The notes below the pieces were generated by a model. That model was not told the DNA's origin, did no database searches, and was given only the letters and a program-made list of their open reading frames with translations. Both the position numbers and the translations under genes were made by a program. DNA of 64,000 nucleotides, taken from the NCBI RefSeq assembly GCF_900128445.1, contig NZ_LT671417.1, positions 1,226,769 to 1,290,768 on the forward strand. Reading direction: 5' to 3'. The stretch comes from Thermophilibacter provencensis. Its GTDB lineage: Bacteria; Actinomycetota; Coriobacteriia; Coriobacteriales; Atopobiaceae. Positions 9,224-27,719 of this stretch are shown here, piece by piece; positions within the stretch are counted from its first letter, which is position 1; every line of letters begins with the position of its first letter.

Positions 9224-9293
9224 GCGCACCCGTTCTTCTCTCCGGCTCACTGCGCTGCGCGCAGAAATCGCCGGGCGAGAAGAACGGGTGCGC
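9224..9293. repeat. long hairpin after yebC
   Basis: GCGCACCCGTTCTTCTC (9224-9240) and its exact reverse complement (9277-9293) enclose a 36-nt loop containing TGCGCTGCGCGCAG. It lies between two convergent genes and may serve as a bidirectional terminator. The arm contains the recurring GCGAGAAGAAC-type motif. Confidence 0.7.
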
Positions 9294-22771: not shown

Positions 22772-22892
22772 AACTTCTGTACATTGCGGGGCCCCGAGCG
22801 CAGATGCACTCGGGGCCCCATCGCGTTTTCGCAGGTAACGGGCTTGCAGGTTCTTCTCGCCCCGTCGAGCTGTGGCGCAATGTACAGAAGTT
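22772..22892. repeat. AACTTCTGTACATTGC inverted repeat element
   Basis: Arms 22772-22787 and 22877-22892 are exact reverse complements. Inside is a GGGGCCCCGAG / CTCGGGGCCCC hairpin; GCGGGGCCCC is shared with the element at 19205. Located 8 bp after the ricT stop. The same AACTTCTGTACAT motif sits at the centre of the inverted duplication at 25074. Confidence 0.75.
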
Positions 22893-22981
22893 TAGGCACT
22901 GTCTGTCGCGTCGCCGCATCCCATGAGCAGCAGCGACGTGGCGAGCGCAGTCCTGAGGAGCCTCATCAGGACCTCCGCCCC

Positions 22982-23512: not shown

Positions 23513-24796
23513 CTAGTTGCCCTCAGAATCTACGGTGTGGGCTGTCCCTTCAACAGGACCCGAGTACTCTACGCGGATAGTAGTTCCAACAGGGACGCTC
23601 TCTCCGGGCTGAATTGAGGTTGAGAGTACAGTCGGAGTGTCCCATCCGGCCCGATCAGAAAGCTCCCACCCGTCGACGCGTGGACTCGGAATAAGCCCTG
23701 AAAGCGTGATAACACTGCTTGCTTCCACAGGGCCCATACCTATGACGTTTGGCATAATGACCTCATCTGCCACCGTGAGCTCAATGAGCGTGTCGGGTGT
23801 AACCCAGGCGCCTGGCGCGGGAGAAACGCCAATGACCCTGTTGTTTTCAAAACCTACTCCGTTGCCGACGGCTGAGACGTTGGTGAAGCCTGCTGCGGCA
23901 AGCTTGGATCGCGCTTGCTGCTCAGAGTGGTTGGTCGTTAGTTCGAGCGGTATCTGCAAGACTCCCGTTACGGTGACGATGACCTCCGCCTTCCAGGGGA
24001 TTGCATCGTATTCATGACGCAGGGCGCCGTTGGGGTCGAGAACCCCTAAGACATTCTTTGTGCGTAGCTCATGGGTGGATTGGTTGATGACTGTTCCCGC
24101 TGCTCCACGTGCCGATCCCTGGCGAACGATGGGAAGAAAGTCCGCCTCGACGAGCGCCTCCCACGCCTGCTGCAGGTCCATGCCCACGACGTTGGGCGCC
24201 TCGCCGAACTCGGTCTCCACCACGGCGGGCGGCCGCGAGCCGAGATGCGATGCCGCCGTCACCGCTACGGCGATGACCATCGCCGCCGCCAGGAACGCGG
24301 CCGCGAGGCGCGCGGCGCGCCGGCGGCGCGGGGCGGCGTCCTCGCGCTCGAGGAGGTCGGCGAGCTCCTCGCGGGAGTGCACGCCGAGCATCCGGTAGCC
24401 CGTCGCGCGGGCGGCGCGCACGGTGCCCTCCGCCAGGTGGAGCTCGTCGGCGATCTGCGCGGTTGAGCGCCCGGAGCAAGCGAGCGAGAGCACGGACGCC
24501 TGCGTCTCGGAGAGCCCGTGGGAACGAAGCGCGGGCCGCCAGTCCCTCTCGCCCGCGTTCTTGTCGGCGCTCTTCTCGGCGTACTTTCTGACAAGCTCGG
24601 CGGCGCCGCTGACGCCGAGCTTCTGGTACGCGCGCTGACGGAGGCTCCCCACGGTGGAGGCGCTGATACCCATCTCGCGCGCGGCGGCCGCCGCCGTCAT
24701 GCCGGCGAGCGCCGAGCGCGCCGCGTCGGCCTCGCGCTCGGTGAGCCCGCGCTCGCGGAAGTCCCGCTCCGCCTCGTGCGACGCCGTGGGAATCAT
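23513..24796 (-). CDS. tandem LuxR-type HTH, one membrane helix, three PASTA-like domains
   Basis: 427 aa from ATG 24796 (SD GGAGAGGAGG). Residues about 15-65 (GLTEREADAARSALAGMT ... GISASTVGSLRQRAYQKLG) and about 90-140 (GLSETQASVLSLACSGRSTA, LHLAEGTVRAARATGYRMLG) are two LuxR/GerE helix-turn-helix domains. A basic stretch RRRRAARLAAAFLAAAMVIA leads into one membrane helix (about 158-182). Outside follow three PASTA-like repeats starting at APNVVGMDLQQAWEALV, IPLELTTNHSEQQARSKLAA and MPNVIGMGPVEASSVIT. PASTA domains usually bind muropeptides on kinases or penicillin-binding proteins. This suggests a one-component envelope sensor that binds DNA from the membrane. Its upstream region has been replaced by the inverted duplication. 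Confidence 0.82.
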   Translation of the reverse strand: MIPTASHEAERDFRERGLTEREADAARSALAGMTAAAAAREMGISASTVGSLRQRAYQKLGVSGAAELVRKYAEKSADKNAGERDWRPALRSHGLSETQASVLSLACSGRSTAQIADELHLAEGTVRAARATGYRMLGVHSREELADLLEREDAAPRRRRAARLAAAFLAAAMVIAVAVTAASHLGSRPPAVVETEFGEAPNVVGMDLQQAWEALVEADFLPIVRQGSARGAAGTVINQSTHELRTKNVLGVLDPNGALRHEYDAIPWKAEVIVTVTGVLQIPLELTTNHSEQQARSKLAAAGFTNVSAVGNGVGFENNRVIGVSPAPGAWVTPDTLIELTVADEVIMPNVIGMGPVEASSVITLSGLIPSPRVDGWELSDRAGWDTPTVLSTSIQPGESVPVGTTIRVEYSGPVEGTAHTVDSEGN

Positions 24797-24837
24797 GCCG
24801 CCTCCTCTCCGCAGCCGATTACCGGAAGCGTACACGA

Positions 24838-25020
24838 GCGCGCGACGACTTCTCCGAGCTGCCGGAGCGCCTCGCGCGCCGCATGTTCGCCAACCCGGAG
24901 CTGCTGCCGCTCGCCGTCCTTATTGACGCGCGAGCGGAGACGCCCGTGGGGCTCTTTGCGCGCGGCGGCTACGCCGTGGGCACCGTGGAGCTCGTCCTGC
25001 GCCTCGCCGCACTGGCGTAG
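24838..25020 (+). pseudogene. inverted copy of the 3' end of the transglutaminase gene
   Basis: The last 60 codons of the gene at 25134-27719, including its stop codon, are repeated here in opposite orientation with no difference that I can see. It has no start or promoter of its own and sits where the promoter of the LuxR/PASTA gene would be. Confidence 0.9.
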
Positions 25021-25316
25021 CAGCGGGGGCAATCAGCGCCGAAGCCCCCTCGCTCCCCGCTCCCGCCCCATCCCCCAAACTTCTGTACATGGAGCGGGGA
25101 GCGAGGGGGCTTCGGCGCTGATTGCCCCCGCTGCTACGCCAGTGCGGCGAGGCGCAGGACGAGCTCCACGGTGCCCACGGCGTAGCCGCCGCGCGCAAAG
25201 AGCCCCACGGGCGTCTCCGCTCGCGCGTCAATAAGGACGGCGAGCGGCAGCAGCTCCGGGTTGGCGAACATGCGGCGCGCGAGGCGCTCCGGCAGCTCGG
25301 AGAAGTCGTCGCGCGC
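24838..25316. repeat. large inverted duplication, 226-bp arms
   Basis: 24838-25063 and 25091-25316 read as perfect reverse complements over 226 bp, with a 27-nt centre that contains AACTTCTGTACAT. The right arm includes the 3' end of the transglutaminase gene and 70 bp beyond it. The 337 bp between the two minus-strand genes is therefore entirely duplicated DNA and the loop. Such a near-perfect palindrome may be a real fold-back rearrangement or an assembly or library artefact. Confidence 0.9.
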
Positions 25317-27719
25317 GAGGGTCACGGGCACGCCGGCCGCATCCAGCGCCGCGAGCGCGCGGGCGAGGGTGGGATCGCCCGTCGCGTCCTCGCGGGTCAC
25401 GAGCGTGAGGGAGAGCCCCGCCGCCGCGACGGCCCCCGCCGCACCCGCGAGCTCGTTCAGCAGGTGCTCCGTCGGCTCCTCCGCCGGCTCCAGGAACGCC
25501 AGGAGCGCAAGGCCGTCGCGCTCGCCGAGCAGCGGCGCCGCGTCGGGGAGCGGGATGCGCTGGAGCATGTCCTCGGGGCGGGGCGCACGCCGCCGCGCGC
25601 GGACCTCGGTGGGGCCGTCCACGGCAAAGACGAGCTCGGCGGCCTGCTGGTTGCCGTTGGGCAGGCGCGTCGTGGTGGTAAGGCGGTAGGTCCCGGCCGG
25701 CACCTCGAGGGCGTCCGGGTCGCAATCCCAGAGGTCGAGCTGGTGGAACCCCCAGAGCTCCTGCCCGCCCACCTGCATGGCGCGTCCCAGGCGCGCGAGG
25801 CCCCAATCGGTGCCGTAGACAAGGGGCGTCCCGTCCGCGACCACGCGCAAGGGGCACGTGCGCTCGCTTGCGGCCTCGCCCTCGACGCAGGACCAGCGCC
25901 CGTCCGCGAGCACCTCGGCGCGCCCGTCGGCGGGCGCCAGGCGCGCGGGCACCCCGAGGCTGCGGCACGCCGCCACGAAGAGCGTGCGCAGCGTCACCTC
26001 GGAGGCCTCGCCGGACGCAAGGGCGCCTGCGGGCGTGCCCACGAGCTTGGCCAGGTGCTCGGCGGGCGAGAAGGACATGCGCTCGCAAAGCCACGCCCAC
26101 GCGGCGCGCGGGTCGTCAGCAATGAGGCGGGCGAGCTCCTCCGGCAGCGCCTCCGGAAAGGCCGGCCGCCAGGCGCTCAGGTGCTCGAGGCCGATTCGCG
26201 GGCAGAGGACGTAGCGCTCCCATGCCTCGCGATCCTGACAAACGACCCGGTCACCTTTGTCATCATGACAAACGCCCCCGGCACCTTTGTCAGGAAGGTG
26301 GCCCTCCAGGAGGGCGGGGTCGGCGTCCAGGTAGTCCTTCTCGGCGAGCGTGGCGAGAAGCGCCAGGCGCTCCGGCTCCGCGCCCGCGGTGAGAAACGAG
26401 AAGATCTCGCCCGCGTGCCCGCGCGCGGTCTCGAGGATGTGAGCCACGAGCGCGGCGTCATCCGCCGGGCGCAACTCTGCCGCGCGGGCGGCGAGCTCGG
26501 CCGAACGCTCACGCATCCGTCCCACGCGCTCGCGGCGGCACTCGTCGGCGGCCGCCTTGCGCGCCCGGCCGCGCTCCGCGGCCTCGGGCGAGAGCGCCTG
26601 CGAGGGCGCGGGGTGGTCCTCGGGCGCGCGCACGTCAACGTCACGCCAGGGGCCGTCCGCCGCCCCGCACGGCGCTGGGGCCGGCGCGAGCACGAGCCCC
26701 ACCTCGGCGACCTCCGCCGTGTCCACGTCCTTCTCGGCCATGAGCGAGCCGGCCGAGGCGTGCACGCGCACGCTCCCCAGACCCAGCTCCACCGAGCAAC
26801 GGCCCTCGTCGTCCGCCGTGAGCACGGAGAGCGGGCGCCACCCGGCCATGTTGAGCACCTCGAAGGCCACGGTGGCACCGGAGGCCGGCGCGCCTTCGGG
26901 GCGCGACACGCGTACGGAGAGGCGCGTGGTGTCGGCGTAGCTCCCGGTCACGTTGACGAGCACGGTGCAGCCCGCGCGGCCCACCACGTCCTCGGGCCTG
27001 CAGCCAAAGTCAGAGAAGAGCCGCGTGGCCACCATGGGCGCGCGTCCGGAGGCGGCGGTGAACCAGCCGCGGTCGAGCGCCTCCTCGGGCTCGCAGGCGC
27101 CGAGGTAGTGCCAGCGGCCGCCCGCCCAGGCCTCCACCCAGGCGTGGTTGTCGTCGCAGTGCGCCCACCAGGGCACGTAGAGCTGCCGGGCGGGGATGCC
27201 CACCGCGCGCAGGGCCGTCACGAGGAGCGTGGACTCCTCGCCGCAGCGCCCGGCCGCGGCCGCGATGACGCCGGGCGCCCCGAGGGTGCGGCCGTCCGTG
27301 GTCTGGTAGGTGGCCATCTCGGCGCACCAGTAGTTGACCTCGATGGCGGCGCGCTCGGGATCGAGCCCGGCCACGCGCGGGGCGAGCTCCCCCCAGAGCG
27401 CCCCCCGGCAGTCCTGGAGCGGCTCGTTGTTGACGCGCGCCGTGGCAACGTAGTGGACGAAGAGGTCCTCCGGCAGGCCTGCCGCCGGCCCCTCGCGGAG
27501 CATGAGGGCGTGGCGCGCGAAGGCGAGAAGGACCTCGAGCGGCGCGTCCACGGCGTCCGTGAGCGGCAGCGTGGCCAGGTGGTAGCGCAGGAGCGTGGCC
27601 TCGTCGGGCGAAAGCGTGGGGAAGAGCGCCTCGGCCTCCATGGCCCGCTCTCCCAGAAGGGCGCGGCGGGCGTCGAGGCGGCGGGCGGCATAGGTGGCGA
27701 GCTGCTCGGAAAGCGGCAT
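25134..27719 (-). CDS. transglutaminase-fold protein, large, function unknown
   Basis: 861 aa from ATG 27719 (AAGGAGGCCCC upstream). A transglutaminase-like papain fold occupies about residues 130-220: AGRCGEESTLLVTALRAVGI with the catalytic Cys, DNHAWVEAWAGGRWHYLG with the His, and GACEPEE where the acidic residue is expected. An Ig-like segment follows (NVTGSYADTTRLSVRVSRPE), then a long helical region and a C-terminal thioredoxin-like or beta-rich part. No signal peptide. The family is often linked to proteolysis of carbohydrate-attached or wall peptides, but substrate and site are unknown. Codons about 478-496 (CHDDKGDRVVCQD) are made by a dispersed palindromic repeat inserted in frame. 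Its 3' end is duplicated upstream. Confidence 0.8.
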   Translation of the reverse strand: MPLSEQLATYAARRLDARRALLGERAMEAEALFPTLSPDEATLLRYHLATLPLTDAVDAPLEVLLAFARHALMLREGPAAGLPEDLFVHYVATARVNNEPLQDCRGALWGELAPRVAGLDPERAAIEVNYWCAEMATYQTTDGRTLGAPGVIAAAAGRCGEESTLLVTALRAVGIPARQLYVPWWAHCDDNHAWVEAWAGGRWHYLGACEPEEALDRGWFTAASGRAPMVATRLFSDFGCRPEDVVGRAGCTVLVNVTGSYADTTRLSVRVSRPEGAPASGATVAFEVLNMAGWRPLSVLTADDEGRCSVELGLGSVRVHASAGSLMAEKDVDTAEVAEVGLVLAPAPAPCGAADGPWRDVDVRAPEDHPAPSQALSPEAAERGRARKAAADECRRERVGRMRERSAELAARAAELRPADDAALVAHILETARGHAGEIFSFLTAGAEPERLALLATLAEKDYLDADPALLEGHLPDKGAGGVCHDDKGDRVVCQDREAWERYVLCPRIGLEHLSAWRPAFPEALPEELARLIADDPRAAWAWLCERMSFSPAEHLAKLVGTPAGALASGEASEVTLRTLFVAACRSLGVPARLAPADGRAEVLADGRWSCVEGEAASERTCPLRVVADGTPLVYGTDWGLARLGRAMQVGGQELWGFHQLDLWDCDPDALEVPAGTYRLTTTTRLPNGNQQAAELVFAVDGPTEVRARRRAPRPEDMLQRIPLPDAAPLLGERDGLALLAFLEPAEEPTEHLLNELAGAAGAVAAAGLSLTLVTREDATGDPTLARALAALDAAGVPVTLARDDFSELPERLARRMFANPELLPLAVLIDARAETPVGLFARGGYAVGTVELVLRLAALA
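26236..26292. repeat. TGACAAA palindromic repeat, two units, inside a gene
   Basis: Two units (26236-26262 and 26266-26292), each TGACAAACG...CCTTTGTCA, lie within the transglutaminase coding sequence. They add in-frame codons on the minus strand, read as DKGAGGVCHD and DKGDRVVCQD. Confidence 0.85.

Follow-up and report, generated by a model that had tools for sequence, protein, structure and literature searches.

The 3' end of a transglutaminase-domain protein gene of Thermophilibacter provencensis is found twice, in inverse orientation, and this structure is probably a young fold-back (inverted template-switch) duplication that arose in a single replication accident through a known mechanism. 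Three observations point to this origin, namely an inverted copy of 226 nt at a distance of only 27 nt from its source, a parental arrangement devoid of the copy in all three relatives with the same tandem gene pair, which are other species, and a microhomology of 7 nt at the outer (return) junction. The mechanism is ordinary, and its survivor is unusual. Throughout, the window is the whole stretch of 64,000 nucleotides that was analysed, and positions are numbered from its first letter.

Anatomy and rarity of the palindrome

The two arms of 226 nt (24838-25063 and 25091-25316) are complementary at 226 of 226 positions (100%) and, together with the spacer of 27 nt, they form an interrupted palindrome of 479 bp in total. 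The left arm sits between the transglutaminase gene and a tandem gene coding for a LuxR/PASTA protein. The inverted duplication of the transglutaminase 3' end was described in an earlier note on this DNA, and its outer coordinates, arm length, 60 codons, 43 nt and 27-nt centre were all recovered as claimed. The features of the region are the following.

23513 to 24796, minus strand: LuxR-type HTH / PASTA protein gene, 427 aa, open frame (Pfam GerE, PASTA), start codon at 24796
24797 to 24837, minus strand: 41-nt LuxR/PASTA upstream block, identical in this genome and in two sister species (G012, G018), containing GGAGAGGAGG, ribosome-binding-like by eye
24838 to 24844: outer junction with 7-nt microhomology GCGCGCG, common to the gene and to the LuxR/PASTA upstream region of two sister species
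24838 to 25063, plus strand: left arm, read as the derived inverted copy, 226/226 identical, not at this place in the three relatives that share the gene pair
25064 to 25090: 27-nt spacer (hairpin loop), CGCCCCATCCCCCAAACTTCTGTACAT
25078 to 25090, plus strand: 13-mer AACTTCTGTACAT, at this site an unpaired end of a REPIN-like family
25091 to 25316, minus strand: right arm, read as the original copy, transglutaminase last 60 codons, stop and 43 nt, with orthologous coding sequence in sister species
25134 to 27719, minus strand: transglutaminase-domain protein gene (Pfam Transglut_core), stop at 25134, likely ATG at 27719, ORF open from 27953

The frequency of such structures was assessed in a sample of 464 kb made of the window and 20 stretches of 20 kb each; three stretches were picked because they contain known 13-mer sites. 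Within this sample the 226-nt pair is unique, the next-longest perfect inverted repeats with a gap of up to 2 kb having arms of 46, 44 and 44 nt, and an inverted repeat of 226 nt far exceeds chance. Many of the inverted pairs next in length resemble, by eye, the REP-type words found around Y1 genes. Elsewhere in the genome, the arm gave short weak matches only.

The earlier note had also read the copy as replacing the upstream region of the LuxR/PASTA gene, where its promoter would be. The distal upstream sequence is indeed displaced, but the conserved block of 41 nt before the start codon is kept; 'promoter replaced' is consequently an overstatement, since what was replaced is the sequence beyond this block. 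Scans for sigma-70 and intrinsic-terminator consensus over 24600-25400 gave no match, a result that is uninformative on promoter loss. An Rfam scan of the window returned a raiA RNA (RF03072, 37081-37364, 131.9 bits) and one tRNA, and nothing else.

Comparison with relatives

The transglutaminase of G012 and G018 is 87% and 89% identical in amino acids, respectively, and in both species the LuxR/PASTA gene comes next and is oriented alike, the stop codon and the 41-nt block lying 148 and 147 nt apart, respectively. The same distance is 299 nt here, which corresponds to 46 nt (stop and 43 nt), the 27-nt spacer and the 226-nt arm. The gene pair is also present in G017, again with a single copy of the transglutaminase tail, such that the left arm is missing in 3/3 relatives with the tandem pair (other species, not strains). 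Since these three relatives have the gene pair without the arm, gene order and alignment show the right arm to be the original and the left arm to be the derived copy. The gap of the relatives, which holds another hairpin and a short T-run, gives no useful alignment with the spacer found here; their gap sequence is missing here and not merely interrupted.

Gene order was scanned at 23 of 51 transglutaminase loci. The LuxR/PASTA gene follows the transglutaminase gene in the same orientation at three of the 23 (G018, G012 and G017), and is found in the opposite orientation at one (G028, 33% identical). A convergent PSP1-domain gene (Pfam PF04468) lies directly after the transglutaminase gene at seven loci, and neither arrangement was seen within the stretch examined at the remaining 12. 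In G017, a 115-bp perfect inverted repeat of REP-like words (locus L057, 5680-5794 and 7250-7364) brackets the LuxR/PASTA gene, and the distant LuxR/PASTA gene of G028 occupies the same site in reverse relative to G017.

The main rival to a chromosomal duplication is an artefact, whereby a chimeric or fold-back read, or a template switch during amplification, would have entered the assembly while the gap in the real chromosome is short and ordinary. In vitro reactions also yield inverted chimeras joined at short microhomology, and the 464-kb sample contained a single structure of this kind. Long inverted repeats at close spacing are moreover described as causing major problems for most sequencing approaches (PMC4057610). 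The genome, however, is 2.63 Mb in three contigs and the palindrome is interior to the 2.63-Mb contig, with conserved genes on both sides. A random chimera would also have to rejoin within the same gap, and the absence, rather than interruption, of the gap sequence of the relatives argues against it as well. An artefact is regarded as unlikely.

Junctions, mechanism and age

G012 and G018 stood in for the ancestor in the reading of the outer junction. The relatives have, on the plus strand, CGTACACGA-GCGCGCG followed by TCCC (G012) or CCCC (G018), the transglutaminase gene has CCCTC-GCGCGCG-ACGAC, and the window at the outer junction has CGTACACGA-GCGCGCG-ACGAC. At least 7 nt are shared at a fraction of 0.0014 of 200,000 random junctions in the window and of 0.0014 of 89,700 local ones. 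As read from these alignments, GCGCGCG at the outer junction is the mark of microhomology-primed inverted template switching, i.e. of a putative return to the original template, although it is a low-complexity word in a genome of 67% GC. At the inner junction, the 13-mer lies at the gene-side edge of the spacer, with its TGTACA core 9-10 nt off the symmetry axis.

We infer the following strand-switching steps, as well as a part for the 13-mer. A nascent strand would have copied through the end of the transglutaminase gene, past a GC-rich hairpin and the 13-mer, and would then have folded back, or continued on the opposite strand, after which 226 nt of the transglutaminase 3' end would have been copied in reverse and the original template regained upstream of the LuxR/PASTA gene through pairing at GCGCGCG. 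The nearest known counterparts are inverted template-switch / MMBIR junctions and tandem inversion duplications in E. coli and Salmonella (PMC3161906, in which Kugelberg et al. 2010 is cited). For E. coli, inverted template switches with microhomology of 3-30 bp are documented in PMC3161906, where REP sequences, described as template-switch hotspots, are the site of 22 of 90 novel junctions. The E. coli/Salmonella junctions treated in that source resemble the present case by their inverted neighbouring copy, the short junction microhomology and REP sequences at or near some junctions; the embedded inverted duplications reported there, on the other hand, measure 5.2 to 42.6 kb and come with selected gene amplification, whereas here 226 nt were copied and no amplification was seen.

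A linear fragment of the transglutaminase 3' end, whether the cell's own or that of a sister cell, could also have been inserted in inverse orientation by end joining, for which a 7-nt microhomology at one end is suitable too. Such an insertion appears very unlikely, given that an independent fragment would have to land inverted at 27 nt from its source, a closeness that comes free with template switching.

The earlier note had taken the duplication to be recent, and the divergence data agree with this. The arms differ at 0 of 226 positions (95% upper bound 1.3%), as against fourfold-site differences in the transglutaminase gene of 84/547 (15%) with G018 and 99/552 (18%) with G012. Because the arms are identical in spite of this 15-18% divergence from sister species, the palindrome appears young; the event would date back no further than about a tenth of the time since the species split, unless the arms have been homogenised.

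The 13-mer family

The 13-mer AACTTCTGTACAT is found at 25078-25090 and at both ends of an element at 22772-22892, making 3 matches in the window (up to 2 mismatches) for a shuffle mean of 0.11, which bears out the earlier claim that the spacer carries the same word as the ends of this element. Genome-wide, 8 exact and 6 one-mismatch copies were counted (0 for the reversed control). A 15-mer, AACTTCTGTACATTG, occurs exactly in 7 copies in this genome, 2 in G006, 1 in G018 and 0 in the other 28 of the 31 genomes of the genus. Two features of the window belong here.

22772 to 22892: inverted doublet of the 13-mer family, 121 bp long, enclosing a GC-rich hairpin
22892 to 22966, minus strand: 24-codon remnant (the gene has ~187 aa in two sister species), its end lying at the edge of the 22772-22892 doublet

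Eight of the 14 copies lie in five inward-facing doublets and four in two outward-facing pairs, and two are single, that of the palindrome included. Doublets were sought in the extracted loci of three genomes, partners being accepted at up to 3 mismatches, and were found at L170, L171, L173, L005, L009, L013, L018 and at 22772-22892 in the window. Their length is 109-110 bp in 7 of 8 across the three genomes, the window copy having 121 bp, and their interiors have diverged.

By its organisation, the 13-mer family is REPIN-like. In common with the REPINs, or REP doublets, presented in PMC3116915, the same word occurs in inverted pairs at several sites (8 inward doublets) and four Y1 transposase (RAYT-type) genes are present in the genome; unlike them, no transposase was tied to the 13-mer here and its copy number is low. 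Within ~1.5 kb on each side of the four Y1 genes, the 13-mer (up to 3 mismatches) was absent save for one 3-mismatch match, at L046. A RAYT partner for the 13-mer was consequently dropped, the four Y1 genes being flanked by other repeat words.

Two other repeats were noted. A REP-like repeat at 26232-26295 (two 30-nt units) lies in frame within the transglutaminase gene, where the protein has 10 residues more than that of G018, and its words are similar to repeats found next to the Y1 transposase gene of locus L046. The 12-mer GGCGAGAAGAAC has 196 copies genome-wide (92 forward, 104 reverse) versus 1 for the reversed control, for example at 9274, 51354, 62142 and 62272 of the window; by eye, its copies between genes are often beside hairpins and sometimes in inverted pairs. 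It is also seen within coding sequence by eye, for which reason a purely intergenic signal was dropped, and it could be an uptake-type or repeat word.

The proposal of the earlier note that the fold-back began at the palindromic 13-mer is supported as to the fold-back (template-switch) origin; a start at the 13-mer is no more than suggested, as the word is off-axis and its other 13 copies have no long repeats. In the 3-kb loci of these 13 copies, perfect inverted repeats did not exceed 25 nt, so that these sites lend no support to a mechanism driven by the 13-mer. In the light of the E. coli junctions at REP sequences, the place of the 13-mer next to the fold-back is suggestive, but it is a single case, in which the word is off-centre.

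The gene to which the remnant at 22892-22966 belongs is putatively lipoprotein-like, judging by its N-terminus, and its full-length relative gave no Pfam match. As the truncated gene and the palindrome, 2.2 kb apart, both adjoin 13-mer sequences, two rearrangements touch the same repeat family, a coincidence that deserves attention.

SbcCD and tolerance of the palindrome

SbcD is a subunit of SbcCD, the hairpin nuclease by which such palindromes are usually attacked, and a profile search of this genome with the SbcD model (TIGR00619) gave no match. SbcD was over the cut-off in 0 of the 31 genomes of the genus, this one included, with marginal matches in two (E 8-9e-4), while in other genomes of the order it was over the cut-off in 10 of 29, and found at E 0.001 or better in 15 of 29; the search control was positive in 13 of 14 named genomes and over the cut-off in 8. 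The sole match of the SbcC model, a candidate at C3:1684728 (25.5 bits, under the cut-off), turned out to be SMC, followed by ftsY. From these profile searches, SbcCD seems missing here.

In E. coli, a 460-bp perfect palindrome is described as lethal when SbcCD is present, and a 480-bp palindrome with a 20-bp spacer as leading to breaks that are reparable by recombination (PMC4245961); a 246-bp interrupted palindrome is reported to give inverted chromosome duplications in cells lacking both SbcCD and RecA (PMC3315005). Among the engineered palindromes of these two sources, the longer has nearly the geometry of the present one (480 bp with a 20-bp spacer there versus 479 bp with 27 nt here), which differs in being natural and in belonging to a genus with SbcD over the cut-off in none of 31 genomes. 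Since a spacer softens such palindromes and SbcCD seems missing, the palindrome probably survived for these reasons, and its tolerance may thus be the result of a lack of SbcCD. Perfect arms of at least 30 nt were found neither in 200 kb each of G007 and G026, two other genomes of the genus in which SbcD was not detected, nor in 200 kb each of G037 and G032, in which it is present. The absence of SbcD alone was therefore dismissed as a cause of many palindromes, G007 and G026 being no different from G037 and G032.

Consequences for expression

Both read-through from the transglutaminase gene and the more distal sequence upstream of LuxR/PASTA may be altered by the palindrome. In a read-through transcript, a hairpin of 226 bp would form, with a predicted energy of -580 kcal/mol, extreme in comparison with a shuffle mean of -259, and the LuxR/PASTA frame is open, as would suit a selected regulatory device in which the hairpin at the end of the transglutaminase mRNA would terminate or stabilise the transcript, offer a site for RNase III, or insulate LuxR/PASTA expression or change it; such a device is nevertheless very unlikely, as G012, G018 and G017 have the same gene pair without the arm, and the arms, identical over their whole length, show none of the compensatory changes by which selection would be recognised. 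Because the fold is a trivial consequence of the duplication, the hairpin is in itself no evidence of function. The palindrome, read as a fold-back duplication, is probably without selected function.

Significance

Taken together, the region presents a clean natural trace of a template switch, of which the source, the copy and the return microhomology are legible through sister species, and it calls for caution against interpreting such arms as designed for regulation. Once confirmed by reads, the palindrome would offer a test of whether, in nature, long palindromes can persist for want of SbcCD. A wider proposition, put forward tentatively and with rather low expectation, is that Olsenella/Thermophilibacter-type bacteria lack SbcCD and so let long interrupted palindromes persist, and that their REPIN-like ends act as fold-back points remodelling intergenic regions, of which the palindrome and the gene truncated at the doublet edge would be instances. 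If this is true, such genomes would keep fold-back products that are erased by other bacteria.
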